Assembly (NCBI GenBank): GCA_001417715.1
Contig: BBRT01000208.1
Location: forward strand, 1-64,000
From: Candidatus Symbiothrix dinenymphae
Lineage (GTDB): Bacteria; Bacteroidota; Bacteroidia; Bacteroidales; Azobacteroidaceae
Direction: 5' to 3'
DNA: 64,000 nt
The position numbers and the translations under genes were made by a program. The notes under the pieces were generated by a model. That model saw only the letters and a program-made list of their open reading frames with translations. It ran no database searches and was not told the DNA's origin. Positions 10,268 through 62,055 of the stretch are shown here, in pieces (position 1 is the first letter of the stretch; each line of letters opens with the position of its first letter).

Positions 10268-11095
10268 ATGGCTATAAAAGATAAAATATTGTCCTATCCT
10301 GCGGCTTTGCTTTTAGATAAGATGAACGAGCAAAACAAAAAATGTTTTACTATTGATGAGGCATATCTACTGCTCTCTAATTCTGCCAAAGATAATGTAA
10401 AACGGATGTTAAGCAATATGACAAAACGAGGGCTGTTGCTGCGTGTTAAGGATGGGTTATATTATACTATTCCTTTTGAGCAGGATGCCCAAACCTTTAT
10501 GCCTGATTGGCATTTGCTCCCGCAATATCTTGTTGGCGAGGCGGAATATTATATCGGGTATTTCTCGGCATTACAAATTCACAGTTTGACGACACAACCA
10601 AGTTTGAAAGAACAAATAGTTGTAAATAAGCAAGTTAAACCCTCAAAGCTCCTTGTTAAAAACATTCCGTTTCAGTTCGTGTATCACAACGAAAAACATT
10701 TTTTCGGTAATAAAAAAACTTGGATTGACAGTTTTAACCGTGTGCAATGCAGCGATTTGGAAAAAACGATTATCGACTGTCTGTTTAAGCCCGACTATGC
10801 AGGCGGGATAACCGAAATTGCCAAAGCCATTTACAAAATAAAAGACAAAATTGATTATTCAAAACTCTTGGAATATGCAAAACGCTTTGATTCTCAGGCA
10901 GTAGTAAAACGGCTCGGTTTTTTGCTTGAATTATTGGAAATTAAACATTCTGCGATTGATGAATTGCAAAAACTGCGAACCAATTCAGTCGTATTGTTAG
11001 AGCCGTCATACCCCAAAGAAGGCAAAATAATTTATCGCTGGTCTGTGCAGCAAAACATTGATACAGAATCTATAATATCCCCAATTTACAGCTAA
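10268..11095 (+). CDS. AbiEi-family antitoxin / transcriptional regulator
   Basis: A 275-residue protein resembling AbiEi antitoxins: an N-terminal winged-helix region (about 1-65, KRMLSNMTKRGLLLRVKDGLYY), then the AbiEi C-terminal domain with the typical block CSDLEKTIIDCL (about 162-173). In type IV AbiE systems this protein represses its own operon and counteracts the nucleotidyltransferase toxin encoded just downstream. The next gene begins 4 nt after this stop, as expected for an abiEi-abiEii operon. The antitoxin looks full length, unlike its partner. Confidence 0.85.
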   Translation: MAIKDKILSYPAALLLDKMNEQNKKCFTIDEAYLLLSNSAKDNVKRMLSNMTKRGLLLRVKDGLYYTIPFEQDAQTFMPDWHLLPQYLVGEAEYYIGYFSALQIHSLTTQPSLKEQIVVNKQVKPSKLLVKNIPFQFVYHNEKHFFGNKKTWIDSFNRVQCSDLEKTIIDCLFKPDYAGGITEIAKAIYKIKDKIDYSKLLEYAKRFDSQAVVKRLGFLLELLEIKHSAIDELQKLRTNSVVLLEPSYPKEGKIIYRWSVQQNIDTESIISPIYS

Positions 11096-12167: not shown

Positions 12168-12322
12168 CCGTCATTGCGGGCTTGACCCGCAATCCCCTGT
12201 TCTACATCGCGCTGTCCTTACATCGCGCTATCGCTCAAACATCCCCCTCATTTTCAGGGGATTGCGGGGCGAGCCCGCAATGACGATACAGGGGATTGCG
12301 GGGCAAGCCTGCAATGACGAGA
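12168..12322. repeat. Dispersed GTCATTGCGGGCTTGACCCGCAAT palindrome copies
   Basis: Three copies or part-copies of a palindromic unit with the core CATTGCGGG-CTTG-CCCGCAATC: about 12170-12196, then in reverse near 12257-12285 and 12291-12320. The same unit occurs in part at about 40,562-40,583 and at 61,497-61,524. This is a widespread kind of intergenic repeat. No gene is seen between 11,736 and 12,467. Confidence 0.75.
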
Positions 12323-12376
12323 ATAATGATTTAACAAACTTTAACACAAAACTATGTTAAAATTTAAACAAATCCA

Positions 12377-12406
12377 TTGTCATTTCAAAAACATTCTCTA
12401 CCTTTG
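12377..12406 (+). promoter_or_regulatory. Promoter of the first Sus operon
   Basis: TTG (12377-12379), 19-nt spacer, TACCTTTG (12399-12406). The spacer and the following leader match the promoter of the second Sus operon (61406-61435, minus strand) almost base for base, which suggests common control. Confidence 0.8.
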
Positions 12407-12409
12407 TCG

Positions 12410-12433
12410 CCGAGTTGCCATAGTGGCAATTCA
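12410..12433 (+). promoter_or_regulatory. Dyad at the transcription start of the first Sus operon
   Basis: Directly after the -7 box the sequence has TTGCCA-TAG-TGGCAA inside a wider imperfect palindrome with GAATTG/CAATTC-like ends. The second operon has the same element with one change per arm. It could be an operator or an RNA stem-loop at the very 5' end of the transcript. Confidence 0.6.
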
Positions 12434-12467
12434 TGACAAATTTGTTAAACATTTTAAATTAAATTTT

Positions 12468-13955
12468 ATGAAGAAGAATTTTAGATGCAGAAGTCGCGAC
12501 AACTTCGCGACAACTTCGCGACAACTTCGCGACAACTTCGCGACAACTTCGCGACAACTTCGCGACAACTTCGCTAATGTAAGAGGCACTCTGCCGAGCA
12601 TTTTGTTGGTGCTGGGGGTGTGCATGTGTGTTTTTGGGTCCTGCGAGGACAGCAAAGACAAGGAGAAAGCGGTGTACGACCCCGGGCAGCCGGTTGTGCT
12701 CACTTCGTTTGCGCCTGATTCGGGGCGAATATCCGAGATGGTGCTTCTGGACGGAAGCAATTTCGGTAGCGACCCGTCACAAATCAAGGTCTATTTCAAT
12801 GAAAAGGAAGCCTCGGTGCTTAGTTCTACCGGTACGCGTATTCTGGCGTTGGTACCCCGTTTGCCGGGAGACGTCTGTACAGTGAGCGTGGCTGTCGGCG
12901 AAAGTCCCAAAAAAGCCTATTCAGGCTCTTTCCGCTACAAAATGGCAGCTTCCGTCACTACGGTTGTTGGAGACGGATCCGCACCCAATCCACCCGTACT
13001 CGGACCCCTGGAGCAGTCAAAATTCCAAGCCCTTTATTTAGGTGTGGATAAAGATTTCAACATCTTTTGTTCGGGAGGAAATGATTTGATGCGAATCAAC
13101 GTCGCAGAAAATATCGTTTCGGTAATTGCCACCGGCGCACAGGGATACCAGCCGCGCTGTGCCCCGTATGCAAATCCCCAAACGGGTGTGCTGCAAATGG
13201 GCGCTGAAGGTCCCTCCAACAGAGACCTGTTCGTAACGTTGGATCCGAAAGACAACTGGGCACTTAAACAACAGTTTATCAGCGAGTGGGATGAAAATGG
13301 ATGGGGACCTGTTCCAAGCGGTGGTCCCAACAACTTCGGTGATAATTTCTATACCCATTACCAGTGTCTTCTGAACGAAGACGACGGTTATTTTTACACA
13401 CGCTACGCCGGCGGACATATCGTCAAAATTGACCCTCAAACATGGAAAGCTACCATCGTGGGCAGGTCAGCTCCCGGAGCATCTTACGGAACAGCCTTTC
13501 ATCCCATCAACAAAAACGAACTCTGGATAGGTTATGTAGAGGTGTACACCGGCACTTATGCCAACAGTATCTGCCGGATAGATGTCAGGGATGTTACCCG
13601 CGACGCCGACGGGTTGTACTCCGGAACGTTTGAAAAGTTGACGGGATCATATGTCGCCGGTCACAGAGACGGACCGATAGCGATATCGCAGTTCAACGGC
13701 ATACGCATGATGAATTTTGATTCGGACGGCAATTTATATGTGGGAGATAACGCCAACGACTGCATCCGGATGGTCAACACGCAGACCATGATGGTGGAAA
13801 CGATTGTCGGAATACCGGGAGTCCGTGATTTTAGGGACGGCTCTAAAGACGACGCAATGTTTTCGTCGCCGCACGGGGTTGTTGTGGATGCGGATGACGT
13901 CATTTACATATCCGATTTCGGGAATTGCCGTATCAGAAGATTAGCCGTTGAATAA
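12468..13955 (+). CDS. TIG- and NHL-repeat lipoprotein with 11-nt repeats at its 5' end
   Basis: A 495-residue surface lipoprotein, first gene of the Sus operon. The ATG at 12468 is chosen because it lies about 60 nt after the promoter; a longer frame from 12354 begins upstream of the promoter. After MKKNFRCRS the N-terminus is made of an 11-residue unit (RDNFATTSRQL, three full copies plus part) encoded by seven perfect 11-nt repeats. Then come a hydrophobic segment and the lipobox VFGSC (Cys about 70). A TIG/IPT domain follows (about 84-165), and the rest is NHL-like beta-propeller repeats (NLYVGDNANDCIRMV, VIYISDFGNCRIRRL). In Sus operons such proteins sit in the SusE/F position and bind glycan. 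Because 11 is not a multiple of 3, gain or loss of a repeat would shift the frame. Confidence 0.85.
   Translation: MKKNFRCRSRDNFATTSRQLRDNFATTSRQLRDNFANVRGTLPSILLVLGVCMCVFGSCEDSKDKEKAVYDPGQPVVLTSFAPDSGRISEMVLLDGSNFGSDPSQIKVYFNEKEASVLSSTGTRILALVPRLPGDVCTVSVAVGESPKKAYSGSFRYKMAASVTTVVGDGSAPNPPVLGPLEQSKFQALYLGVDKDFNIFCSGGNDLMRINVAENIVSVIATGAQGYQPRCAPYANPQTGVLQMGAEGPSNRDLFVTLDPKDNWALKQQFISEWDENGWGPVPSGGPNNFGDNFYTHYQCLLNEDDGYFYTRYAGGHIVKIDPQTWKATIVGRSAPGASYGTAFHPINKNELWIGYVEVYTGTYANSICRIDVRDVTRDADGLYSGTFEKLTGSYVAGHRDGPIAISQFNGIRMMNFDSDGNLYVGDNANDCIRMVNTQTMMVETIVGIPGVRDFRDGSKDDAMFSSPHGVVVDADDVIYISDFGNCRIRRLAVE
12495..12571 (+). repeat. Seven perfect tandem 11-nt repeats inside a coding region
   Basis: The unit CGCGACAACTT is repeated seven times without a mismatch, followed by CGC. 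It starts 27 nt after the ATG. All three frames of the repeat are open, so copy-number change alters only the frame downstream, as in contingency loci. Confidence 0.95.
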
Positions 13956-14006: not shown

Positions 14007-17000
14007 ATGAAATATAAAATATGTATGTTATTAGTGCTGTTGCTGGGTGGTTTTACGCTGGCGGCACAGCAGCAGACCTTCACCATTGAAGGGACGGTGT
14101 ATGACGAACTCGGGGAAACGCAGCCCGGAGCGAACATTTACATCAAAGAGAAAGCAAGCTTTGGCACTGCCACCGACCTCAACGGTAAATTTTCCATCAA
14201 AGCTCAACGCGGCGATGTGCTGGTGGTTTCCTTTGTCGGCTACGACAAGGTGGAATATCTGGTGACGGAAGAAAACAAAAATGTAGAGATACGTTTTGCC
14301 GAGTCAACCCAACAGATAGACGAAGTGGTGGTGGTAGGACTTGGCACGCAGCGAAAAATCTCGTCTGTGGCTGCCGTTTCCACCATTGATGCCGCTCAGT
14401 TGCAGGTGCCTTCACCCTCCATCACCAACATGCTGGGTGGCAGGGTGGCAGGTATCATCACCACGCAAACCAGCGGCGAGCCGGGAAAAAACCTTGCCGA
14501 GTTCTGGGTGCGCGGCATCGGCACCTTCGGTGCCAACAGTAGCGCGCTGGTACTCATCGACGGGCTTGAGGGCGACCTCAATACGATAGACCCTGCCGAT
14601 GTGGAGAGTTTCTCCGTGCTGAAGGATGCTTCGGCAACTGCCGTTTATGGCGTGCGCGGAGCCAATGGCGTGGTGATCGTTACCACCAAACGCGGCGAGG
14701 AAGGCAAACTGAAGGTAGCGTTCAGGTCCAACTTTTCGATTTCGCACCTCAAACGCCTGCCCGAATATCTGCATGGCTATGACTATGCCCGCCTGGCAAA
14801 TGAAGCCTTCGAAGTGCGCGGCGAAAAGGCAAGGTACAGCGACGTGCAGTTAGACGTTATCCGCGACGGCCTGGACCCCGACCTCTATCCCGATGTGAAC
14901 TGGCAGGACGAGATAGTGAACCGTACCTCGTTCAAGCAGAGTTACTATGCCAGCGCGCGCGGGGGCGGACAGATTGCACGGTATTTCGTCAGCCTCGGCA
15001 TGTCCGACGAAGACGCCGCCTACAAGGTTGAAAAGGACAGCCCCTACGCTTCCAATGCCGGGTATAAAACCTACTCCTTTCGCTCCAATCTGGACATTAA
15101 CCTGACCAAAAGCACCGTCATGTATTTCGGCTCGGAAGCCTATATGTCCATCAACAACCTGCCGGGAAGTATGAATACCGACTACGTCTGGCAGGCGCAG
15201 GCAATGCTTAACCCCCTGTTGTTCCCGACGGTTTACTCCAACGGTCAACTGCCTGCCGCAGGTGCCAACAATATGGCATCGCCCTACGCACTTATCAACC
15301 GTACGGGGAAAAGCAGCCGTCAGGACAGCCGTTCGCAATTCACCCTTGCCATCAACCAGGATTTGGAAGCCCTTACCAAAGGATTGAAACTCAGGGTACA
15401 AGGTGCCTACAACCGCAACGGATACCTGACTGAACGCCGCTTCACCATGCCGGCAATGTACAGGGCTATCAACAGAAACGGCAAGGGAGAGTTGATTACA
15501 CGTGAGCAGGTATCGAACCAAAAGGTGGAATATTCAAAAACGGAAACTTCCTACCGGAAATATTATTTTGAAACGATGCTCAATTACGACCGTGCCTTTG
15601 GCGACCACCGCGTGGGCGGTCTGGTCTATTACTATCTCAGCGACCAGCAGGATACGAAGGATGCCGGACCCGTTATCAACGCGGTGAATAACACTTACAA
15701 CAGTTTGCAGGCAATCCCTGTCAGGTATCAGGGCGTTTCGAGCCGACTCACTTACGGATTCCGGGATACCTATCTGATAGACGTCAACTTCGGATACACC
15801 GGCAGCGAAAACTTCACGCCCGGCAAACAGTACGGGTTTTTCCCCTCCATAGCCCTGGGCTGGATACCAACAGGCTATCAGTGGGTGAAGGACAATGCAG
15901 GCTGGCTTGACTTCTTCAAAATCAGAGGCTCGTATGGAACGGTGGGCAACGACCGCATCGGCGGCGCCACCCGTTTCCCCTACCTGACAAGGGTAACCGT
16001 GGACAACAGATACCTCTGGGGCGGCACGCAGCGAGTAGAAACAGTGACCGTAACCCGCGAAGGAGCCGATAACCTGGTGTGGGAGAAAGCACTCAAAACC
16101 GATATCGGTATCGATGTCAGTCTGTTGAAGAACCGTGTTTCCCTCACGGTGGACTACTTCAACGACCAGCGCGACGGTATTTTTGCGCAGCGCGTGCAGG
16201 TGCCCGATTATGTTGGTCTCACCACCATGCCCTACGGCAATGTGGGCCGAATGAAAAGTTGGGGTTCCGACGGCAACATCACCTATATGCAGGACATCAA
16301 CAGGGATATGGGATTTACCCTCCGCGCCAATTACACCTTCTCGCAGAACCTGGTACAGAATTGGGAAGCGCTGAACGAGAAATATCCGTATATGGAAAAC
16401 GTCGGTCAGCCGAATGGTGTAGTTCGCGGGTTGCAGGCAATCGGTTTCTTCAAAGACGAAGCCGACATCCGCTACAGCCCTAAACAAACCTGGGGAGAAG
16501 TGATGCCCGGCGACCTCAAGTATAAGGACATCAACGGCGATGGTAAAATCGACGACGAGGACAAGACGCCCCTCTCCTACCAGTCAATGTATCCTTTGGT
16601 GATGTACGGTTTCGGCGGCGAGTTCCGTTATAAGAACTTTTCGCTCGGCGTGCTGTTTAAGGGAACCGGCAAAACAGACTATTTCCGCAACAGCATGGGG
16701 TATATACCTTTCTACAATGGTGAAACGGGCAATGTGCTTGCCGGATTCAACGACCCGAGCACGCGGTGGATACCGAGAGATTACGCGCAGGCACACGGTA
16801 TTGATGCCTCGCTGGCAGAAAATCCGAACGCACAACTGCCGCGTCTGCAATACGGCAACAATGCGAACAATACGCAACTGTCGGATTTCTGGAAAGGCGA
16901 CGCCAGCTACCTGCGCCTGCAGGAAGTGACGCTCAACTATAATTACCGGTCGCTTCCCCTGAAAAAAATCGGCATCTCGTCCATCGACCTGCAATTAGTG

Positions 17001-17120
17001 GGCAACAACCTCTATGTGTGGGACAAAGTGAAAGTGTTTGACCCCGAACAGGCTGATAAAAACGGGCAGGCTTATCCGATACCCGCAGTATATAGCCTGC
17101 AACTATACATCAATCTTTAA
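14007..17120 (+). CDS. SusC/RagA-family TonB-linked outer-membrane transporter
   Basis: A 1,037-residue SusC-like protein that imports oligosaccharides through the outer membrane using TonB energy. It has a signal peptide (MKYKICMLLVLLLGG, cleavage near LAA-QQQ), a carboxypeptidase-D regulatory-like domain (about 26-105, EGTVYDELGETQPGANIYI), the conserved EVVVVG segment, a plug domain (about 115-235, with the SusC hallmark VLKDASATAVYGVRGANGV), and a C-terminal 22-strand-type barrel. It starts 51 nt after the TIG/NHL gene and ends 21 nt before its SusD partner. The reading frame is intact and has no homopolymer tract, unlike the SusC of the second operon. Confidence 0.95.
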   Translation: MKYKICMLLVLLLGGFTLAAQQQTFTIEGTVYDELGETQPGANIYIKEKASFGTATDLNGKFSIKAQRGDVLVVSFVGYDKVEYLVTEENKNVEIRFAESTQQIDEVVVVGLGTQRKISSVAAVSTIDAAQLQVPSPSITNMLGGRVAGIITTQTSGEPGKNLAEFWVRGIGTFGANSSALVLIDGLEGDLNTIDPADVESFSVLKDASATAVYGVRGANGVVIVTTKRGEEGKLKVAFRSNFSISHLKRLPEYLHGYDYARLANEAFEVRGEKARYSDVQLDVIRDGLDPDLYPDVNWQDEIVNRTSFKQSYYASARGGGQIARYFVSLGMSDEDAAYKVEKDSPYASNAGYKTYSFRSNLDINLTKSTVMYFGSEAYMSINNLPGSMNTDYVWQAQAMLNPLLFPTVYSNGQLPAAGANNMASPYALINRTGKSSRQDSRSQFTLAINQDLEALTKGLKLRVQGAYNRNGYLTERRFTMPAMYRAINRNGKGELITREQVSNQKVEYSKTETSYRKYYFETMLNYDRAFGDHRVGGLVYYYLSDQQDTKDAGPVINAVNNTYNSLQAIPVRYQGVSSRLTYGFRDTYLIDVNFGYTGSENFTPGKQYGFFPSIALGWIPTGYQWVKDNAGWLDFFKIRGSYGTVGNDRIGGATRFPYLTRVTVDNRYLWGGTQRVETVTVTREGADNLVWEKALKTDIGIDVSLLKNRVSLTVDYFNDQRDGIFAQRVQVPDYVGLTTMPYGNVGRMKSWGSDGNITYMQDINRDMGFTLRANYTFSQNLVQNWEALNEKYPYMENVGQPNGVVRGLQAIGFFKDEADIRYSPKQTWGEVMPGDLKYKDINGDGKIDDEDKTPLSYQSMYPLVMYGFGGEFRYKNFSLGVLFKGTGKTDYFRNSMGYIPFYNGETGNVLAGFNDPSTRWIPRDYAQAHGIDASLAENPNAQLPRLQYGNNANNTQLSDFWKGDASYLRLQEVTLNYNYRSLPLKKIGISSIDLQLVGNNLYVWDKVKVFDPEQADKNGQAYPIPAVYSLQLYINL

Positions 17121-17141: not shown

Positions 17142-19169
17142 ATGATACGAATAAATAGAATAAATAGTAAATCAGTCATGCTGTCGCTTGTCGCCGGTTT
17201 GCTGCTGTCTTCCTGCAATTTCTTGGAGATAGACGATTATCTGGATGAAGAGATGAAAATAGATTCCATCTTTTCCAACAAAAGGTATATAGAGGCTTAT
17301 ATGTGGGATGCCGCGAGCCGTTTTACTGACGAAGGTGCGCTTTTCGGCGGTGCTGAAATGTACACACCCGGTCCCATGGCAACAGACGAGGCTTTCTGCC
17401 TTTTCCCCACATCGGACTTTCAGGGAATGGGATATGTGCTGGGCGACTACAACGCCAACAGTATCGGCAACATCAATCGCTGGGCTGACTGGTATAAGAT
17501 TATCCGCCAGTGCAACACCATTTTTGCGCGGGCGGATGAAGCGCGGGACTGGACAACTTCCGAGCGGCAGCGCATATTGGCTTATACCCGCTTTATCCGC
17601 GCGTATGCCTATTATAACATTGTGACCAATTTTGGTCCTCCGGTGTTGCTCTACGACGAATTACCGCCCAACAACGAAGAAATGGCAAATTACGACAGAC
17701 CCCGCGACCTCTACGACGATGCCGTGGAATATATCTGTACGGAATTTGAAGAGGCGGCGCGCTATATGCCGGAAAAAGTGTCTTCCATCCTGGAATATGG
17801 ACGTCCTACCAAAGGCGCTGCCTACGCTCTGACGGCACGGTTGCGACTGATACACGCCAGCCCCCTGTTCAACGGCGGCACGGCGGCACGAATTTATTTC
17901 GGCGACTGGACGCGCAAAACCGACGGCAAACACTACATCGCACAGCAGCCCGACCCGAAACGCTGGGCGGTGGCGGCAGCAGCGGCAAAACGAGTGATGG
18001 ACATGACCGACGCCGGACTGCCCATGTATAAACTGCACACGGTGGAAGAAGACGCTGCGACCTGGACGACGGCACGTCCGTTCCCGACCGGCGTATCCGA
18101 CCCCAATTACGGCAATGCGTTTCCCGACGGAGCAGCCGGCATTGACCCCTTCCATTCGTATGCCGACATGTTTAACGGCAAAACCGTGTTGACCGTAAAC
18201 CCCGAATTTATCTGGGCAAGAAATTCAGCCAGTATTAGAGATTACACCCGCTACTCCTTCCCTTTTGCCAATGGTGGCTATAACGGAGTGAGCGTTACCC
18301 AGAAGGTTGTTGATGCCTACGAGATGGCTGACGGTCGCACGATTTCCGCCTCAAGCGCACAATATCCGTACAGCGAAACCGGATTCACCGGTTCAATGAC
18401 GGAATTTTCGGGCTACCGGCTCAACGCGGGTGTTTACAATATGTATGTCAACCGCGAGGCGCGCTTTTACGCCTCCGTAGGTTTCAGCGAGCGTCACTGG
18501 CCACTCCAGTCCACGTCCGACAACGCGCAGAAGAATCTCACCGTGACCTACAATTACGATTCGCCCAACGGGAAATCGGGCAGTAACAACCCCGCCTATC
18601 ACCCTGCCACCGGTTATGTGCTCACCAAATACATTAATCCGATAGACGCATGGAGCGGAACGGCTGCCCGCCGGACAGACAAGCCGTTCCCGATTATCCG
18701 CTACGCCGAAATATTGCTTTCCTACGCCGAAGCACTGAACAGCCTCGGCAGCGGCAGCTATGAAGTGAATGTGAACGGAACTGCGCAGACCTTTCGTCGC
18801 GACGGGGCGGAAATCAAAAAAGCACTCAATCAGGTGCGCTACCGTGCCGGACTGCCCGGCTTGACCGATGCGGAAGTGGCAGACGAAGCGCTCGTGCTGG
18901 CAAAAATAAAGAAGGAACGCATGGTGGAGTTTCTCTACGAAAACCGCCGCTACTTCGACGTGCGCCGATGGGGTGATTATGAAGCGTCTGAAAGTGAAGC
19001 CATCCGGGGCATGAACACCAATGCCGGCAAGGATGCTTTCTACCAGAGGTCGATTCCCAACAGTACCCGCATCGGGAACAGGCTGGTCAATCGAAGGCTT
19101 GTCTTTTTGCCTATACCGCGAGATGAGATAAAACGCCTTCCTTCGTTCGACCAGAACCCCGGATGGTAG
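17142..19169 (+). CDS. SusD/RagB-family glycan-binding lipoprotein
   Basis: A 675-residue SusD homologue, somewhat longer than the usual 500-600. The lipobox LLLSSC gives a lipid anchor at Cys 25 or so. The body is the alpha-helical TPR-like SusD fold, and the C-terminal RagB/SusD signature is present (KIKKERMVEFLYENRRYFDVRRWG, split by one residue from the usual form; residues about 590-613). The protein caps the SusC barrel and delivers the bound oligosaccharide. It lies 21 nt after susC in the same operon. The substrate cannot be read from the sequence. Confidence 0.95.
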   Translation: MIRINRINSKSVMLSLVAGLLLSSCNFLEIDDYLDEEMKIDSIFSNKRYIEAYMWDAASRFTDEGALFGGAEMYTPGPMATDEAFCLFPTSDFQGMGYVLGDYNANSIGNINRWADWYKIIRQCNTIFARADEARDWTTSERQRILAYTRFIRAYAYYNIVTNFGPPVLLYDELPPNNEEMANYDRPRDLYDDAVEYICTEFEEAARYMPEKVSSILEYGRPTKGAAYALTARLRLIHASPLFNGGTAARIYFGDWTRKTDGKHYIAQQPDPKRWAVAAAAAKRVMDMTDAGLPMYKLHTVEEDAATWTTARPFPTGVSDPNYGNAFPDGAAGIDPFHSYADMFNGKTVLTVNPEFIWARNSASIRDYTRYSFPFANGGYNGVSVTQKVVDAYEMADGRTISASSAQYPYSETGFTGSMTEFSGYRLNAGVYNMYVNREARFYASVGFSERHWPLQSTSDNAQKNLTVTYNYDSPNGKSGSNNPAYHPATGYVLTKYINPIDAWSGTAARRTDKPFPIIRYAEILLSYAEALNSLGSGSYEVNVNGTAQTFRRDGAEIKKALNQVRYRAGLPGLTDAEVADEALVLAKIKKERMVEFLYENRRYFDVRRWGDYEASESEAIRGMNTNAGKDAFYQRSIPNSTRIGNRLVNRRLVFLPIPRDEIKRLPSFDQNPGW

Positions 19170-40561: not shown

Positions 40562-40583
40562 CCGGGGCAAGCCCCCAATGACA
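40562..40583. repeat. Partial GGGCAAGCCC-type dispersed repeat
   Basis: GGGGCAAGCCCCCAATGACAAG is a degenerate copy of the unit at 12,168-12,322, lying at the edge of the GH127 remnant. Confidence 0.55.
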
Positions 40584-41249: not shown

Positions 41250-42101
41250 ATGTCAATTCCTATCAATATAAAGAAATTAATTTCCGGTAAGGTAGTTGAA
41301 AATGAACGGATAGAATATAAGAAAGGCTGGAATCCGATTTCAATCTACCGTACTATTTGTGCGTTTGCCAATGATTTTGAAAACATTGGCGGCGGATATA
41401 TCAATAGCGTGTATCACCGCTCGTATGAAATTCGTGAGCCGGTGGAAATCCGCATTTTGCCGAGTGCGATTGAAATTATCAGTTATGGAGGTCCCGACCG
41501 AAGCACAAAGTTAGAGGAAGTGCAGAAGGGAATTATTCGTAACCGGAGGTATCGCAACAGAAGAATCGGTGATTTCCTGAAAGAAATGGATATGACCGAG
41601 GGACGTGGAACAGGAATACCAACCATTCGCAGTGAAATGGCAAAAAATGGCTCTCCCGAACCTCAATTTGAAACCGACGAAGATTATAGTTTCTTCATCA
41701 TAACCCTTCCGATACATCCCGCTTTCCTTTCGGATGATGGAGTAAATGATGGAGTAAATGATGGAGTAAATGATGGAGTAAATGATGGAGTAAATGATGG
41801 AGTTCAAACATCTGATAATCAGTTAGATAGAGTTTTTTTGCTCATCCGTGATGGAGTAAATGATGGAGTAAATGATGGAGTAAATGATGGAGTAAATGAT
41901 GGAGTAAATGATGTTGTAAATATACTCTTGAATGTATCCGGATTGAATGCTTCTGAAATAGCTCTACGGATAAATAAAAGTATTCCAACAATAGAGCGTT
42001 ATCTTCGTTTGTTACGTAAAAAAGGAATAGTTGAATTTAGGGGAATTCCTAAAACCGGCGGTTACCGGTTGACAGAGAAGGCACAAGATAAATTGAAATA
42101 A
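41250..42101 (+). CDS. Shrunken AlbA_2 / RecG-like regulator with DGVN repeats
   Basis: A 283-residue protein. The first 50 residues match the start of AlbA_2 (Schlafen-type) DNA-binding ATPase-like regulators ([25 protein letters not shown]). The next residues ([15 protein letters not shown] onward, to about 160) match the C-terminal ATPase-like domain that normally lies some 200 residues later, so the middle is missing with the frame kept. Two blocks of five DGVN repeats (about 163-185 and 201-223) follow, encoded by perfect 12-nt units. A winged-helix domain ([30 protein letters not shown], interrupted here only in my reading) ends the protein. Such proteins are thought to be regulators. 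The gene lies 23 nt before the GH67N-like gene. Confidence 0.72.
41736..41921 (+). repeat. Two blocks of 12-nt coding repeats (DGVN)
   Basis: GATGGAGTAAAT occurs five times in tandem at 41736-41795 and five times at 41850-41909, each block followed by a variant unit. Because 12 is a multiple of 3, copy-number change would alter linker length but not the frame. Confidence 0.92.
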
Positions 42102-49066: not shown

Positions 49067-50778
49067 TCTGCATTGTGTACCGTCAGTTTTTCGACATCAA
49101 ACTGCAAATCTTCATTTTTCGGAATGGCAATTTGATACGTTTTGCGACTTGCGGTCGGCGTTAATTTGGTGTCGCGTAGCCATGCGTTAAATTCTTTCAA
49201 AGTGGCATAACTGATGCCGTGTTGTTTGGCAAAAGCCGTCATATCCGGTATATCGGTCACTTCCACATACTTCACAGGTACTTGCGGGTACAGATTTTCC
49301 TTTTTTAGCCGATAGCCATACTCTTTGGGGTGACTCATAAACTCTTTGGCAGCCAGAATGCGAAACATATAGCGCGATGTTTCCGGCACCAGCAACAGGT
49401 CGAAAGCCGATGTTGCGGCTTGTTGGCGCAGTTCCGACGAGATGCGCCCCATGCCTGCATTGTAAGAAGCCGCCACATTCATCCAGTTGCCATATTGCAC
49501 ATAGGCAGCACGCAGAAATTTGCACGCCGCCACGGTCGATTTCTCCACATGATAGCGCTCGTCCACCCCGTCGCGAATTTCCAAACCAAAATCGCGCGCC
49601 GTGCCTTCCATGAATTGCCACAAACCGGCAGCTCTGGCGGGCGAAATGGCACGCACGTCCAAATTGCTCTCGATGACGCACAGATATTTGAAATCGTCAG
49701 GGATATTGTTTGCCTTCAAAATCGGCTCTATGACAGGGAAAAAGCGATTGGCACGCTTGATTGTCAGCATTGTGGAAGCATGATAATAGGGCATGATATT
49801 CATTTCGCGGTCGTATCGCTCCCGCATGTCGAGGCGTTTCAACGAAATGGTTTGACCGGCAAATTCCACTTCCGCCGGTAGGGGAACGGAGGTTGCCAAT
49901 ATGGGTATGGTTGCCACATTTTCCGGTGCTGCCTCTATCTCTTCCTCTTCTTTCGGGGCTTTGCTGCTTTTCACAAACAAAAATCCGGCAAAAAGCAGCA
50001 TCAGCACACTGACAACTTGCATTCCAATCTGACTTCTGCGCGAGCGATTGAAACTGCGATAACTGTCCGGCGCGATTTCTACGTCCGGCTCCACATAATT
50101 TTTTTTAGGTGTGTTCACAAAATTTATATATTTAATTGTTATTCCTCTGTCAAGCCACTGCTGCTCATAATAGGTGCGGATGGCAAGAACCCCCTGCAAA
50201 GCACACACATTATCCGTTTTTTGCAGCACCGGCAACCCATTTACCTCAATCATAGCATTGGTGTAGGCATACAGAAATTGGCTGTCCGTTTTCAGGTGAA
50301 TTTGCCCGTCTTTGGTCAGAATCTCGCTGTACAACTGCATGAAACGTGTGCCTGTCAGCCGTTTATTGACCTTTTTCATCTGCGGGTCGGGGAAAGTGAG
50401 CCATATTTCCGACACTTCGCCCGATGCAAAAAAGCGGTTGATAAGTTCAATATTGGTGCGCAAAAACGCCACATTGGTCAGCCCGTCCGCCAAAGCCGCC
50501 TTTGCACCTGACCATATCCGCGCACCCTTAATGTCCACGCCGATAAAATTGCGTTCAGGGAAAAGTTTCGCCAGCCCAATCGTATATTCGCCTTTGCCAC
50601 AGCCCAATTCCAGCACAACAGGATGGTCATTTTTGAAATACAACTCATTCCACCGCCCCCGCATCTCATGGTCATTGCAGACTTGCCCCGCAGTCCCCTG
50701 CAAGTCCGCAAAAGAGCACTGAAACACATTAGGATAACTAAGCATATCAGCAAATTTCCGCAATTTATTTTTCCCCAT
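49051..50778 (-). CDS. trmB: TrmB tRNA m7G46 methyltransferase fused to a lytic transglycosylase
   Basis: A 575-residue fusion. Residues 1 to about 252 are TrmB: SAM motif LELGCGKG (56-63), the LTFPDP motif (about 127-132) and the usual C-terminal tail [19 protein letters not shown]. At Gly-Met (252-253), where TrmB normally stops, the frame continues into a transmembrane helix ([16 protein letters not shown]), an acidic linker and an MltD-type transglycosylase domain with catalytic Glu in CVIESNLD (about 368) and [17 protein letters not shown] LysM-like end follows. The ATG at 50778 is set by the promoter at 50792; a longer frame from 50961 starts upstream of it. Topology works: TrmB in the cytosol, the transglycosylase in the periplasm. 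A lost stop codon or a sequencing error at the junction are the alternatives. Confidence 0.85.
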
Positions 50779-56150: not shown

Positions 56151-58100
56151 TTACCATCCCGGATTTTGTACCAGATTGGGGTTTTTCAACAATTCTCCTT
56201 GCCTAATTGGCCACAGATACTCCTTTTTGGTGAAACTCAACGGACTTAACGTAATTACATTGTAATAATCTTCCGGAGTTTCGCCCATAATATTCCAGCC
56301 TCTGATGGGTTTGTTCAGTTCCGTTTCGGCAATCAGCCACCGACGGACATCCCAGAAGCGTTTCCCTTCAAAAGCGAGTTCAATCATGCGTTCCTGCCGG
56401 ATGATGTCGCGCATACCTGTTTTCGAGGCGGGCTTATCGGTAACAGTCGAATATGTCGCCCAACTTTCCACCACGCCTTTCAAACCGGCTCTTGTTCTGA
56501 TTAAATCTACATAATCATACACTTCCTGATTTGGCGCGTCCAAATATTCGTTCAGCGCTTCAGCATACAGCAAATACAAGTCTGCCAACCGCATAATGGG
56601 GAAAGAGGCTGATTGTGTAGTCAATCTCGTACCTCCCGCATCGACCTGAGTTTCGATATGCGTCCCTTTTTTGAGCAAATATCCGGTGATGGAAAACCTT
56701 AATCCCGAATAATTGCCGGAATAATTGCCCTTCAACATACGGGTTACCCAAGCGGCCTGGGCTGCCGGAGTCTGGTTGAAATCCAATTGCCTTCCGTTAC
56801 CTATCCAATAACCGCCGTCAAAACCCAGATTGGCATAAAACCTTGGCTCGCGGTTCATGTTGATTTTGGCAATCTTGTAATTACCATCCACAAGCATATA
56901 GTATTGCTGGTCTGCCGCTGCCGGTTCGTATTTAAAACGGTTGGCAAAATCATAACTCGGGTCTTCGGTGATAGGCACTCCATTGTTGCTGTAGAATAGT
57001 TCCACCATCCGCATGGTAGGTGCAATGATAGGGTCGGATGCCGCCAAATTTGCGTGGCTCTGTAAAAAATGCGGCAAAGTGCGTTGTGTAAGATTAGCAG
57101 GATTATCCTTTCCCCAAATGATTTCACGGTTCCATTTGTCCGTAACCACTGTTCGCAAGGTCATTACCAACTTGCTGGTGTCTGAAAGTCCCGAATAGGC
57201 CGAATAAAATCCGGATTGGCTGAAATCGTACAATCCGTACTCGGCTAACTCTACCGTGTCAATGGCATTTTTGCAGGCTGTTTTTGCCCGTTCCCACTTG
57301 TCCTTGCTGCTGAGTTTGCTTTCAAAAAGTTTGGTTCCCCTGTTGTCCACCATTCCTGACAGGTCGGGGTTGTTGTTGAACAAGGGGCTTGCTGCCGTAA
57401 CCAACAATTCTGCCTTAATAGACAGGGCGATGGGTTGTGTAATCCTCCGCAATTCGCTGGCAGTATTGTAGATGACCAAGGGAAGGTCGGGAACGGCCTC
57501 GTCGAGCAATTGCACGATATAGTCCACGCAGTCGTCAAATTTATCGCGATATGCCCTCGATTCGGAAATATCTGCATCAATAGGCAAGTTTGCCCTGATT
57601 AGAGGTATCGGACCGTATTGTTTCAACAGATAATAATGGTAATAGGCTTTCAAAAACTTCACTTCGGCTACCCATCGCACCTTTTCATCCGGTTTCAAAT
57701 CGGGACCTACTTTATCAATGTTATCAAGGAAGATATTGCAATCTCTAATTCCCTTGAACAATCCTCGTCCCTGATTCAGTGCTTCCCAGTTATTCACATA
57801 AGGCGAATTGCTGTTCTGATCGATTTTGATAGAGAAACAATTGTAGTTTCCCATCCATTCATTCTCTAATGCATTACCTCTAAACGCCCATGTATCATCG
57901 CCGCCCATAATGCCCGGGTCATAGCGAGGGTTGCCTATATCGGGCAAGAAAGAATAGCAGGAGGCAAGATAAGACTCAGCGCCTGTTCTGTCGCGAAAAG
58001 CATAATCAATAGTCGCTATGTTGTCCGGCACAATGTCCAAATAACTGTCGCATGAACAACAAAAAATCATAAAAAATAAAGAATATACTAACTTTTTCAT
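56151..58100 (-). CDS. SusD/RagB-family lipoprotein of the second operon
   Basis: A 649-residue SusD homologue with lipobox FCCSC (Cys about 17) and the early SusD segment YLASCYSFLPDIGNP. The C-terminal signature is IRQERMIELAFEGKRFWDVRRW (in the sequence, one residue longer than usual spacing; about 585-606), followed by the usual LWPIRQGELLKNPNLVQNPGW end region. It starts 11 nt after the SusC stop. If SusC is switched out of frame, this protein would depend on read-through transcription of the same message, and polarity could lower it as well. Confidence 0.95.
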   Translation of the reverse strand: MKKLVYSLFFMIFCCSCDSYLDIVPDNIATIDYAFRDRTGAESYLASCYSFLPDIGNPRYDPGIMGGDDTWAFRGNALENEWMGNYNCFSIKIDQNSNSPYVNNWEALNQGRGLFKGIRDCNIFLDNIDKVGPDLKPDEKVRWVAEVKFLKAYYHYYLLKQYGPIPLIRANLPIDADISESRAYRDKFDDCVDYIVQLLDEAVPDLPLVIYNTASELRRITQPIALSIKAELLVTAASPLFNNNPDLSGMVDNRGTKLFESKLSSKDKWERAKTACKNAIDTVELAEYGLYDFSQSGFYSAYSGLSDTSKLVMTLRTVVTDKWNREIIWGKDNPANLTQRTLPHFLQSHANLAASDPIIAPTMRMVELFYSNNGVPITEDPSYDFANRFKYEPAAADQQYYMLVDGNYKIAKINMNREPRFYANLGFDGGYWIGNGRQLDFNQTPAAQAAWVTRMLKGNYSGNYSGLRFSITGYLLKKGTHIETQVDAGGTRLTTQSASFPIMRLADLYLLYAEALNEYLDAPNQEVYDYVDLIRTRAGLKGVVESWATYSTVTDKPASKTGMRDIIRQERMIELAFEGKRFWDVRRWLIAETELNKPIRGWNIMGETPEDYYNVITLSPLSFTKKEYLWPIRQGELLKNPNLVQNPGW

Positions 58101-58111
58101 ATTATGTAATT

Positions 58112-61100
58112 TTAAAAAGTGAATTGTAAACCTAAATTATAAACTCTTTGCAGCGGGTATCCCAAGCCATTACCCCCCATTTCCGGATCCCACAGTTTAA
58201 AGGGACTGAAAGTAAGCAAGTTGGTGCCACTGATATAAACGCGGAAGGCTCGCATCTTGATTTTATTGGTCACACGTTCCGGGACAGTGTATCCCAGTTC
58301 GGCTGATTTCAGACGCAGAAAAGAGCCATTCCGCATAAACCAAGTACTGGTTTGTGTGTTGTTATTGACTATCTGGTCGGAAAGTCGTGGCCACAGTGCA
58401 TACAGATTTCTATCGTCTTCCGCCCAGTGATTGTCGGCATAAGCCTGCAACAACGCATTCTTGGAAAGGATACTTGCGTTGCCGTCTGTATCCACAAAAG
58501 GCGAGGTTGTTGCCGCGTCAATCCAGAAAGAACGCTGTCCCAGCCCTTGGAAGAAAAACGAAAGGTCAATTCCCTTGTATCCTGCCGATAAACCGAACCC
58601 ATATATGATTTGCGGCTCGGTGGGGAATCCGATGGGGACTTTGTCCAAGTCTGTAATTTGACCATCGCCATCAATGTCTTTGTACTTGATGTCGCCGCCC
58701 CTAATGCTTCTGGTATCGTTGAAATTTTGAGCGGGTGAGTTGCGTACTTCGGCATCGTCAACGAACAACCGCTCTGCCACATACCCGAACTTCTGCGATA
58801 GGGGTTGCCCAATCATTGACCTCCAAGGGGTAGTGGAATAACTGATTTCTTCATATTCGGTATATTTGGTGGTGGCATACGTGAAATTCATCCTTCCTGT
58901 AACCCATAAATCCTTATTGAAACTGTGCTGATAATCAGCAGAAAAATCTATACCGCTTCCTTTTGCTTTGCCGAGGTTGGCTTGAGGCGTCACATTCAAT
59001 CCCATGGTGGCTGGCACATACGCTCTTTCAAGCAATATTCCCGACCTGTCTTCGGTATAGTAATCAAGAATAAAGTCTAATTTGCCAAACAGGTTCATTT
59101 CAACGCCCAGATTCATTTTCCGTGCAGTTTCCCATGTAATCATTTCATTGGCATATCTGTCAACAGATACGCCATATTGCGTCTGATTGAAATCATATCC
59201 ATAAGAATAAGACCTTCCCGATTCTGTCCCCATCAGCACTTTCGACAAATAAAAGAATCGGTCGTCTGCATTTCCGATGGCATCGTTACCAACCAATCCG
59301 TAAGTGCCTTTGAATTTCAGTTTCGGCATAATCCCGTTAAGCCCCAAACTTTCCGACCAGAAATTCTCATTGGATACCACCCAACCGACTCCGATGGAAG
59401 GGAAAAAACCGAAACGCTCATTCTTGGCAAACCGTTCCGAGCCATTGTATCCAAAGTTAAACTCTGTGAAATAGCGGCTATCGAAAGCATAAGTCGCTCT
59501 GCCCGAAACGCCTATATTCCGGTGAGGCAACGATAATTCGAAAGTCGTAGCGTTGGCTTCCGAATAATTCCGCATGGTAAATACCATCAACCCGCTGACA
59601 GCATGCTTATCGGCAAATGTACGGTCGTAGATTGCCGCCGCTTCGGTGTAATTGGTGGTCTTGATTTCTCTGGGGTCTTCTGAAAATCTCAACCATTCTT
59701 CGGCAAGTCCCGTCCCATTGTTCAGCCATTGCAGTGTGTATGTGTCTGTTGGCTTTTCGTAGGAAGCAATATTATAATAGTACGGTTTATACTGCCTCTT
59801 TGTAGAGTGGAACGAATAGCGGGTGGTTGAATACAATGCCCTGACAGACAGCCCGGAAGTTATAAAATCCAGGTTCTGTTTTAACTCAAACTGAGCCATC
59901 ATCTGGGATTTGTTATAATCCCTGTATCCTTTCACCATATCGGCATACGGGTTGATATAATTGGCTGTTCCGGCATTTCCAAATAAAATATGGTGCGCGT
60001 AAGCGTTTGCTTCGTCCGGTGCATACTTGGGGGCAAACAACACAGGGTCTGACATAATTATTTTCTTGTACAGCGCATCACCTCCATCCAAAGGACCCTG
60101 ATAATCGTCAAAAGAACCTGACAAACGCACGATAGCTTCTGTGCTTGGGGTCAGATTGATATTGACATTCGACCGCAACTGGTATTTTTTCAGGTCAATG
60201 TTGTTGTTAAAGTTGTTCTGCCTGTCCATTTTCAGATTTCCATTGTCCTGATTGTAGGTAGCCGCCACATAGTATCGGGCTATCTTACCGCCACCACTCA
60301 CATTCAGGTTAGCACGGTAGTTAATGGTTTGGTCGTTCATTAGCATGTTGTACCAGTCATTGGCAGGATACACATATTGATTCCTGTTCGGATCCATGGT
60401 GTTGTCAATCTTTTCCTGCGAGTAGGGTATGGTGCCTCTTGGATCTCTGGTCAACACTGCCTCGTTGTTCAATTGCATGTAAGTAATCGGGTCGGCAAAC
60501 CTCACTTTATAAGTCGGTTCGGATATGGAAGTCTCTGCTCTGAAAGACACGGTAGTTGCGCCTTCCTTTCCTTCCTTGGTGGTAATCAGGATGACGCCAT
60601 TGGCTCCGCGAGCACCATACAAAGCCGTTGCCGTAGCATCTTTCATGATGGAGAAACTGGCAATATCATCGGGCTGCATCCGCGAAAGGTCTGCCGATGA
60701 CATTTCTACTCCGTCAATCAGGATAAGCGGTCCACTGGCGTATGTGAGCGAGGTAACGCCGCGCACAAAGAAGCTGGCGTCGTCCTGCCCGGGTTCACCA
60801 CTACTCTGGTAGGAAATCAACCCTGACATGCGTCCTGCAAGTGCTGTGGACAAGTTGCTGCTCGGCACCTTCAAATCTTTGGTGTTGATGGTGGAAATGG
60901 AGGAAATCACACTTTCTTTCTTCTGCTTACCGAAAGCCACCACCGTCACTTCGTCCAACTCATTCGACTTGGGCTTGAGCGGAATCACAAAACTCGCCTT
61001 GTCGCCCACCGCCACAGTGTAGGTGTCATACCCCAAAAAAGAAACTTCCAAAACATCCGTCGGCGAAACGTCTATTTTGAATGAACCATCCATGTCGGTC

Positions 61101-61343
61101 ACTACTCCACGAGAGCTCCCTTTGATGGTGATGGTGGAGCCGGGGACTCCAACTCCGGTTTCATCGTAAACGAAACCGGTAACGGTCTTCGTCCGCGCCG
61201 AAGCATTTGTTGTAACCTGCGCCTCCTGCGGCGCCTCAGCACGAATGCTTTGCGCCCCCCCCCCCCAAGAGAATGCTGCTTAGAAGCAAACCTTTTGCAA
61301 AGTTTGCAAACTTCTTGTTTTTGCTTTTTTTCTTCATTTGCAT
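58112..61343 (-). CDS. SusC/RagA-family transporter, frameshifted by a 12-G tract
   Basis: A SusC-like gene of 1,076 codons when in frame. It starts at 61343 (or the in-frame ATG at 61337). The first 24 or so residues form a signal peptide start (KKKSKNKKFANFAKGLLLSS), then the codons run into 12 G at 61255-61266. With 12 G the frame shifts and stops within about ten codons. With 11 G it continues as a normal signal-peptide end (GGG-A-QSIRAEA), a CarboxypepD_reg-like domain (TVTGFVYDETGVGVPGSTI), the EVTVVAFG segment, the plug (SIMKDATATALYGARGANGV) and the barrel to the C-terminus. Nothing else in the gene is broken. This is either an OFF phase or a homopolymer error. Confidence 0.9.
61255..61266 (-). 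repeat. Poly-G tract of 12 in the SusC signal-peptide codons
   Basis: Twelve consecutive G on the minus strand (C on the plus). The codon frame upstream (ATG...CTC TTG) and the frame downstream (GCG CAA AGC...) join only if the tract has 11 G, or 8 or 14. Mononucleotide G tracts of this length slip easily and are classical ON/OFF switches. Confidence 0.95.
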
Positions 61344-61405
61344 AAAATTAAATTTTTAATGTTTAACAATTTTTTTTGTGAATTGCCACTATGACAATTC
61401 GGCAG
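61343..61405 (-). promoter_or_regulatory. Leader and dyad of the second Sus operon
   Basis: Right after the -7 box the minus strand reads GAATTGTCA-TAG-TGGCAATTC (an imperfect 21-nt palindrome), then an A-rich tract, TTGTTAAACATT and an AT-rich run to the ATG. The same order and almost the same bases stand before the first Sus operon (12,407-12,467). Confidence 0.7.
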
Positions 61406-61435
61406 CAAAGGTAAAGAATGTTTTTGAATTGACAA
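61406..61435 (-). promoter_or_regulatory. Promoter of the second Sus operon
   Basis: Minus strand: TTG (61433-61435), 19-nt spacer, TACCTTTG (61406-61413). The spacer differs from that at 12,377-12,406 at only a couple of positions. Confidence 0.8.
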
Positions 61436-61496
61436 TGGATTTTGAAAAGTTTAACCTTTTTTATTTAATTTTCGTTGATGTTAACCAAGTTTTTGC

Positions 61497-61524
61497 CATT
61501 GCGGGCTTGACCCGCAATCCCATG
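61497..61524. repeat. CATTGCGGGCTTGACCCGCAAT repeat copy
   Basis: A further copy of the dispersed palindrome at 12,168-12,322, lying between the second Sus operon promoter and the HEPN/MNT pair. No gene is seen between 61,436 and 61,650. Confidence 0.75.
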
Positions 61525-61650: not shown

Positions 61651-62055
61651 ATGGATAAAGAACCCATCATTAACGCCGACGAGATTGTGAAGCATTGGAT
61701 AGACACATCTGATGCGGACTTTGAGGTCATGCTCACGCTACTTGAAACAAAGCAGAATAGTTGGGCATTATTTCTCGGTCATCTCGTGCTTGAAAAACTA
61801 TTGAAGGCATATTATGTGAAGCAGCACGGCACGCACGCACCGCTTTGGCACGACCTTGTACAGATTGCGCAGCGTGGAGGATTTGTCCTCACAGCCGAAC
61901 AGGTTAGATGTTTGGATATAATTACCCAATTCAATCTCAATGCGCGTTATGACGACTATAAGCGTAATTTCTATACACAATGCACTGCCGAATATACGGC
62001 AGAGTGGTCGGAAAAAATTAAACAACTACGAATATGGATAAAGGAGAGGCTATAA
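61651..62055 (+). CDS. HEPN-domain protein (toxin side of HEPN/MNT pair)
   Basis: A 134-residue, all-helical HEPN protein of the PF05168 type, with VLEKLLKAYYVKQHGTHAP (about 49-67) and LWHDLVQIAQ (about 68-77). In HEPN/MNT systems the HEPN protein is a toxin, often an RNase, that the MNT partner silences by nucleotidylation. The classical R-x4-6-H catalytic motif is not visible here; the C-terminal NARYDDYKRNF stands in the usual place. The partner gene starts 22 nt before this stop, so translation is coupled. Confidence 0.85.
   Translation: MDKEPIINADEIVKHWIDTSDADFEVMLTLLETKQNSWALFLGHLVLEKLLKAYYVKQHGTHAPLWHDLVQIAQRGGFVLTAEQVRCLDIITQFNLNARYDDYKRNFYTQCTAEYTAEWSEKIKQLRIWIKERL

Follow-up and report, generated by a model that had tools for sequence, protein, structure and literature searches.

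A shared leader with a predicted 5′-terminal hairpin heads putatively phase-variable SusC operons in Candidatus Symbiothrix dinenymphae

Two leaders of about 95 nt in the 64,000-nt stretch of Candidatus Symbiothrix dinenymphae DNA analysed here (hereafter, the window) are members of a family of some 30 near-identical gene starts that precede SusC operons in this genome. The module comprises, in this order, an upstream dyad, a promoter of the sigma-ABfr type, a 9-bp hairpin (H1), the start codon, a short coding hairpin (H2) and a slippage tract, which is either poly-G or, at 12494-12574, 7.4 copies of an 11-bp unit. We consider it likely that these leaders act as the standard expression head of many phase-variable SusC/SusD operons, which would share a regulator and have their transcripts stabilised by a 5′ hairpin. 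Repeat slippage, acting behind a common expression head, seems to switch most SusC transporters of one genome, with one candidate operator for the whole SusC set. If so, the outer surface of this symbiont would be a mosaic, composed at random, of receptors for nutrients and possibly for phages.

A leader family tied to SusC operons

A sequence-only reading had claimed that positions 12377-12470 (plus strand) and 61435-61343 (minus strand) agree almost base for base, and the match held when each element was re-read. The promoter of operon 1 (12377-12406, plus) consists of a TTG at 12377-12379, a 19-nt spacer and TACCTTTG at 12399-12406, and that of operon 2 (61406-61435, minus) of a TTG at 61435-61433, again a 19-nt spacer, and TACCTTTG at 61413-61406; our covariance model R1 scores them at 103.8 and 115.2 bits, respectively. 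At the predicted 5′ end of the mRNA, H1 of operon 1 (12412-12432, plus) folds with -13.6 kcal/mol, its first paired nucleotide being nucleotide 2, and H1 of operon 2 (61380-61400, minus) is backed by its fold and by pairing in the leader alignment. A stretch of the 5′ UTR, TTGTTAAACATT (12442-12453, plus), which is conserved in alignment A1 and inverted relative to 12330-12341, is perhaps a further half-site. The start codons follow at 12468 (plus) and 61343-61341 (minus), both ATG. With at most three mismatches, the 23-nt spacer pattern CCATTGTCNNTTCAAAAACATTC occurs at two places in the 64 kb, both of them in the leaders (shuffled mean 0.00). The H1 half-motif alone is not rare in the window (8 matches versus 7.06 expected, with up to three mismatches allowed), and it is the exact matches and the combination of elements that make the likeness significant. 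Rfam returned no match in the window at the gathering score.

The genes behind the two leaders differ, as had been noted. Operon 1 opens with a lipoprotein carrying TIG and NHL domains (12468-13955, plus; Pfam), which is in frame (ON) in the assembly and is followed by SusC (14007-17120, plus; Pfam Plug and CarbopepD_reg_2, TIGR04056 at 999 bits), SusD (17142-19169, plus; Pfam SusD_RagB) and two further surface-type genes. Operon 2 consists of SusC (58112-61343, minus), which the assembly shows as OFF, its start codon and body being in different frames, SusD (56151-58100, minus; Pfam SusD_RagB) and three more genes. Nearby genes include one with an AbiEi antitoxin C-terminal domain upstream of operon 1 (10268-11095) and a HEPN-domain gene (61651-62055) divergent from the operon 2 promoter.

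Model R1, built from 20 leader copies in alignment A1, gave 24 strong matches in the genome of the window (76-117 bits; one of them truncated where its contig ends) and seven further matches between 40 and 66 bits, below which lies a continuous tail of ordinary promoters starting at 36.8 bits (124 matches with E no higher than 10). Three of the mid-score matches (C144:10858, C13:6343 and C96:21340) have diverged H1 hairpins; another three (C247:62248, C247:45542 and C41:26310) have a promoter of this type and a poly-G head, with H1 replaced by a sequence unrelated to it that can also fold into a hairpin; the last (C1:97687) has the promoter and a near-perfect dyad without a hairpin, before a nucleoside-hydrolase lipoprotein. 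Altogether, the genome holds 27 H1 leaders, a number also obtained with a second model, R2.

Of these 27, 20 are followed by SusC or a SusC-type start and three by a TIG-domain lipoprotein as the first gene of a SusC/SusD operon. The former comprise 13 SusC genes, 12 of them with a tract of 8 or more G and one (C96:21340) with only G6, six SusC-type heads with a tract at which the contig ends, and one truncated SusC with G12 (C13). The lipoproteins are the one at 12468 with its 11-bp array and those on C50 (G12) and C96:33258 (G13); the two latter loci (C50:12867 and C96:33258) join a SusC-type poly-G head to a TIG lipoprotein like that at 12468. One leader (C144:44719) precedes a head without a tract before the contig end, and another (C340) is itself cut by the contig end. 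The leader would be of a general kind if it stood before many unrelated genes, yet only two of the 27 do so, one before a gene with no Pfam match (C28) and one before a DoxX gene (C144:10858). This tally ties the leader to SusC operons. It also bears out, across the genome, that short slippage repeats follow the leader, which is the main point of the finding, and it excludes a simple operon duplication, as the sequence-only reading had argued, since the leader is a dispersed family that heads both SusC genes and TIG lipoproteins.

The same picture emerges from the SusC genes themselves. TIGR04056 yields 50 matches in the genome, 31 of them over the cut-off, which correspond to 30 SusC genes because the one on C281 is split. 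Twelve of the 30 have an H1 leader and a tract of at least 8, two a substitute hairpin and poly-G, and one H1 with G6; five have poly-G and a leader wholly or partly lost at a contig end, three lie behind a leader-bearing TIG lipoprotein, five are cut before the start, and two have neither leader nor tract. Operons with a leader or a tract therefore hold 23 of the 25 SusC genes that can be judged.

Beyond this genome, a diverged version of the module is present in another species of the genus (G005), with H1 leaders on contigs C167 and C1 and poly-G heads on C7, C49, C84, C123, C167 and C1; two of these six poly-G starts carry H1, two a repeat-type hairpin and one another hairpin, and one has no promoter motif nearby. 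A search of 37 other genomes of the genus returned strong matches in G005 only, two in number, and isolated weak ones near 30 bits in G005, G058 and G025; no strong leader match was found in any other genome searched. Model R2 gave none in 294 other genomes of the order (E up to 0.001, strict filters), and the leader pattern none in a wider genome-contig database. A CTTG9 pattern matched in none of the 37 genomes of the genus, missing G005 because the poly-G heads there have other flanks. Named relatives of the SusC protein were found at 52 loci, and the 12 inspected showed neither poly-G nor leader; the nearest come from uncultured Bacteroidia, whose genomes we take to be of termite gut origin.

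Dyad, promoter and hairpin within the leader

The upstream dyad, TTAACACA-AAAC-TATGTTAA (12341-12360, plus), is a candidate regulator site predicted to lie at -70 to -51. It is the single site in the window that fits TTAACAN{5,10}TGTTAA, against 0.04 expected. Among the 29 leaders of at least 50 bits, TTAACA-N7/8-(T/G)GTTAA occupies a fixed place, about -69 to -50, in 21 and is missing or degenerate in eight, including the second leader of the window, which has the right half only; the right half is present in 26 of the 29, and the halves are less variable than the letters that separate them. Genome-wide, TTAACAN{5,10}TGTTAAA occurs at 23 places (33 rows, both strands), 21 of which lie before a leader, one of these at a contig end, and the pattern read backwards has seven matches. 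A further TTAACA 10 bp upstream of the dyad and TTTGTTAAAC in the 5′ UTR resemble extra half-sites. The upstream dyad probably binds a regulator common to the leaders. A shared regulator had been suggested earlier on account of the dyad at the predicted start; the idea gains from the upstream dyad, which is nearly confined to the leader and is a better candidate than the one first put forward. The window also contains a dispersed palindromic repeat, GCGGGTCAAGCCCGCAATGAC, with six copies in the window at no more than two mismatches (12170-12190, 12264-12284, 12298-12318, 40562-40582, 50671-50691 and 61495-61515; 0.00 expected), which is frequently found immediately upstream of the leader dyad, and the substitute hairpin on C247 and C41 consists of related sequence.

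Within the leader, the hairpin, the spacer text and the upstream dyad are specific, but TACCTTTG through GCCGA proved to be a general promoter/start motif of the genome: TACCTTTGCCGCCGA, with at most one mismatch, has 86 sites. We also considered whether the leader as a whole might be such a general promoter form and rejected this, because the 5′-terminal hairpin is not in excess elsewhere, being found by our set threshold at five of 53 other general-promoter sites versus 6.7 in shuffles. The test covered 67 distinct sites out of the 86 (14 with H1 and 53 without); those left out failed the TA..TTTG filter, lay near an edge, duplicated another sequence or had a sequence that was not retrieved. 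Sigma-ABfr promoters, according to the part of PMC7366714 available to us, have TAnnTTTG at -7 and a TTG-bearing (TTTG-like) element near -33. The leader shares both, with TACCTTTG 19 nt after ATTG, that is, with TTG instead of the full TTTG; it differs from the promoters described there in that its spacer sequence is conserved as well, as is a dyad lying farther upstream. Another repeated leader, CGATATTTACG..AAGTAAATATCG, has a 5′-terminal hairpin of its own and occurs at four loci (L151, L154, L158 and L329, on C70, C85, C171 and C337), in two of the four copies before a small lipoprotein with a MKKIKNVFLLAAMAVSAVTFTACDKEN-like sequence.

An element acting at the RNA level, also proposed in the sequence-only reading, gains support from H1. 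Across 21 leaders, two of them from G005, all 188 of 188 stem cells pair even though seven of the nine pairs vary: two pairs never change, six vary on one side, and one shows a two-sided change (C-G to U-A, in G005), while slid controls pair at 25-65%. As the two-sided change is limited to one pair, formal covariation is weak, and because nearly all changes are one-sided, a letter-shuffle control cannot separate the pairing from chance. In every H1 leader folded, pairing begins at nucleotide 1 or 2, assuming a transcription start 5 nt after TACCTTTG, a position taken from the motif. Unrelated hairpins, which fold less exactly at nucleotide 1-2 than H1 does, replace it at three loci of this genome and two of G005, as would be predicted if function depended on the fold and not on the letters.

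Stem-loops at the very 5′ end stabilise the ompA and papA mRNAs of E. coli. H1 would resemble them in that its stem, if transcription starts where assumed, begins within the first nucleotides of a surface-protein mRNA, and it differs in being common to a whole gene family and in being known here from sequence. RppH of B. subtilis needs at least two, and prefers at least three, unpaired 5′ nucleotides, as stated in the part of PMC3997798 available to us. The geometry of H1 would hinder an enzyme of this kind, provided that a Bacteroidota counterpart behaves alike, and by analogy H1 probably protects the 5′ end of the mRNA.

Alternatively, H1 could be a DNA operator, a repressor on the palindrome over the start controlling all SusC operons jointly, with the RNA pairing incidental. 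The palindrome does lie across the predicted start, and its 24 copies hardly vary. Most copies are, however, imperfect as DNA palindromes, with a T opposite a G that pairs only in RNA (U-G in 15 of 21 at one position), several loci carry an unrelated hairpin-forming stretch instead of H1, and the upstream dyad is the better operator candidate; we therefore regard an operator at H1 as unlikely.

We judge it similarly improbable that the likeness of the leaders reflects recent copying only, SusC genes having multiplied together with 5′ regions of no special role. Such copying would agree with the restriction of the family to two species and with the weak correlation between leader and main-body identity (Spearman 0.35). 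Nevertheless, the leader is an island of conservation: mean pairwise identity is 84.7% in the leader versus 58.1% in the upstream DNA (29 copies each), declining through the head (79.3%, 23 copies) to 68.3% in the first 600 nt of the body and 54.4% in the next 2400 nt (17 copies). Moreover, changes in the H1 stem retain pairing, the half-sites of the dyad are kept while the intervening letters vary, and the leader precedes TIG lipoproteins as well.

Slippage tracts and reading frames

Both operons of the window were said to begin with a slippage-prone repeat, and both do. The lipoprotein of operon 1 starts with 7.4 copies of the 11-bp unit TCGCGACAACT (12494-12574, plus), where loss or gain of a unit changes the frame; operon 1 is ON, and the other two frames of the repeat run into a stop after 27-28 codons. 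The signal peptide of the operon 2 SusC contains a tract of 12 G (61255-61266, minus), at which the gene is OFF; it would be in frame at 8, 11, 14 or 17 G. The head text typically runs from the ATG through a lysine-rich stretch, two or three AAGTTTGCA-like units, H2 and CTCTT to the G tract.

Sixteen genes combine a tract of at least 8 with a body of at least 300 codons, and 14 of them are out of frame, with open bodies of 431-1056 codons; in one of these (C327:1864) the tract is broken by an A (G8-A-G3). The two in frame, C297 (G11) and C330 (G14), fall below the third expected by chance. Tract lengths differ between loci, in a fragmented assembly whose poly-G lengths are unreliable. The long frames kept intact in the 14 out-of-frame genes are as expected of phase-variable genes, and two hallmarks of contingency genes are present, a slippage-prone tract within the reading frame and a body that stays intact while out of frame.

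Could the poly-G frames instead be assembly or sequencing faults, or decaying genes, with no switching? Several contigs end in or near a tract, apparently garbled sequence follows G15 on C271 and at C216:133, the copies on C13 and C41 are truncated, and that on C281 is split. Against this, long open frames persist in the 14 out-of-frame bodies, the tract sits at an equal place in SusC and TIG lipoproteins, a different type of repeat replaces it at 12494, and G005 shows the same layout, so that we put little faith in faults or decay as the explanation.

Throughout the genome, at least 9 consecutive G occur at 71 places; 26 of these tracts belong to SusC or lipoprotein starts, and most of the other 45 are not within long frames. 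Tracts away from SusC heads include those at L173 (G9 in a 668-codon frame), L174 and L187, and they often lie near repeated stretches such as TTGATAATCAG. A 12-bp unit is repeated about 15 times inside an open frame at 41734-41921.

H2, at 61274-61288 (minus) in operon 2, is a suggestive case of a conserved coding hairpin. It is kept in 25 heads (20 distinct), 7 nt before the poly-G, with 92.5% of cells paired; four of its six pairs show two-sided changes, none of 500 shuffles reaches its covariation score, and it is retained despite changes in the encoded peptide (LLLSS, TPPHG, LLIS). Tested against synonymous recoding, each head alone gives P of 0.05-0.18, and the heads are related, for which reasons we hold H2 as suggestive.

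Proposed mechanism and known systems

From the shared module, the kept pairing, the tracts with their frames and the intact out-of-frame bodies, all observed directly, we propose how start, regulator, stabilisation and switching may fit together. Transcription would begin just after TACCTTTG, and one common regulator, bound at the TTAACA-N8-TGTTAA dyad and perhaps also at TTTGTTAAAC in the 5′ UTR, would help or restrain it. The 9-bp hairpin at nucleotide 1-2 would most likely block the pyrophosphohydrolase and the 5′-end-dependent nuclease, stabilising the surface-protein mRNAs. The first gene opens with the slippage tract, usually poly-G in the signal peptide and the 11-bp array in the lipoprotein at 12468, and gain or loss of a unit would shift the start codon into or out of the frame of the body, such that each operon would be ON or OFF at random in each cell. 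A more far-reaching version, which we offer tentatively as a possibility rather than an expectation, is that dyad, promoter, 5′ hairpin, H2 and poly-G form a portable cassette copied onto SusC genes and TIG lipoproteins; the single regulator would then set the expression strength of a random transporter repertoire, and H2 would tune tract slippage (in replication or transcription), OFF alleles reverting or leaking at a set rate.

In Bacteroidales, descriptions of phase-variable surface proteins usually involve DNA inversion. A promoter on an invertible segment, as near SusC/SusD in Bacteroides, with the imperfect inverted repeats that flank both window promoters (12354-12373/12440-12459 and 61344-61367/61449-61472, 75% complementary) as recombination sites, is nevertheless very improbable here, as all leaders found directly before heads face forward, with no copy seen in the opposite orientation, and the repeat arms are imperfect and AT-rich. 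Our searches of the open-access literature, including those on termite Bacteroidales and invertible SusC, turned up no description of poly-G switching of SusC, with subscription journals mostly outside the scope of the search.

The haemoglobin receptors HmbR and HpuAB of Neisseria meningitidis are phase-variable by poly-G, according to the part of PMC3786947 available to us. They are, like the SusC proteins, outer-membrane nutrient receptors with poly-G inside the reading frame. They belong to another phylum, and there two receptors are concerned, whereas here it is most SusC genes of one genome, joined by a common leader with a dyad and a 5′ hairpin, and the switching is predicted from sequence. 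Gut Bacteroides, in turn, have DNA inversions near SusC/SusD, as far as described in the part of PMC10939037 available to us; as in our case, phase variation there acts on SusC/SusD systems, and the bacteria belong to the same order, but the mechanism is site-specific inversion, in contrast to the repeat slippage proposed here, where no reversed leader is among those found. As far as these sources show, the closest known analogues are the poly-G receptors of Neisseria, which work in a similar way, and the inversion regions of Bacteroides, which involve the same proteins with another switch.
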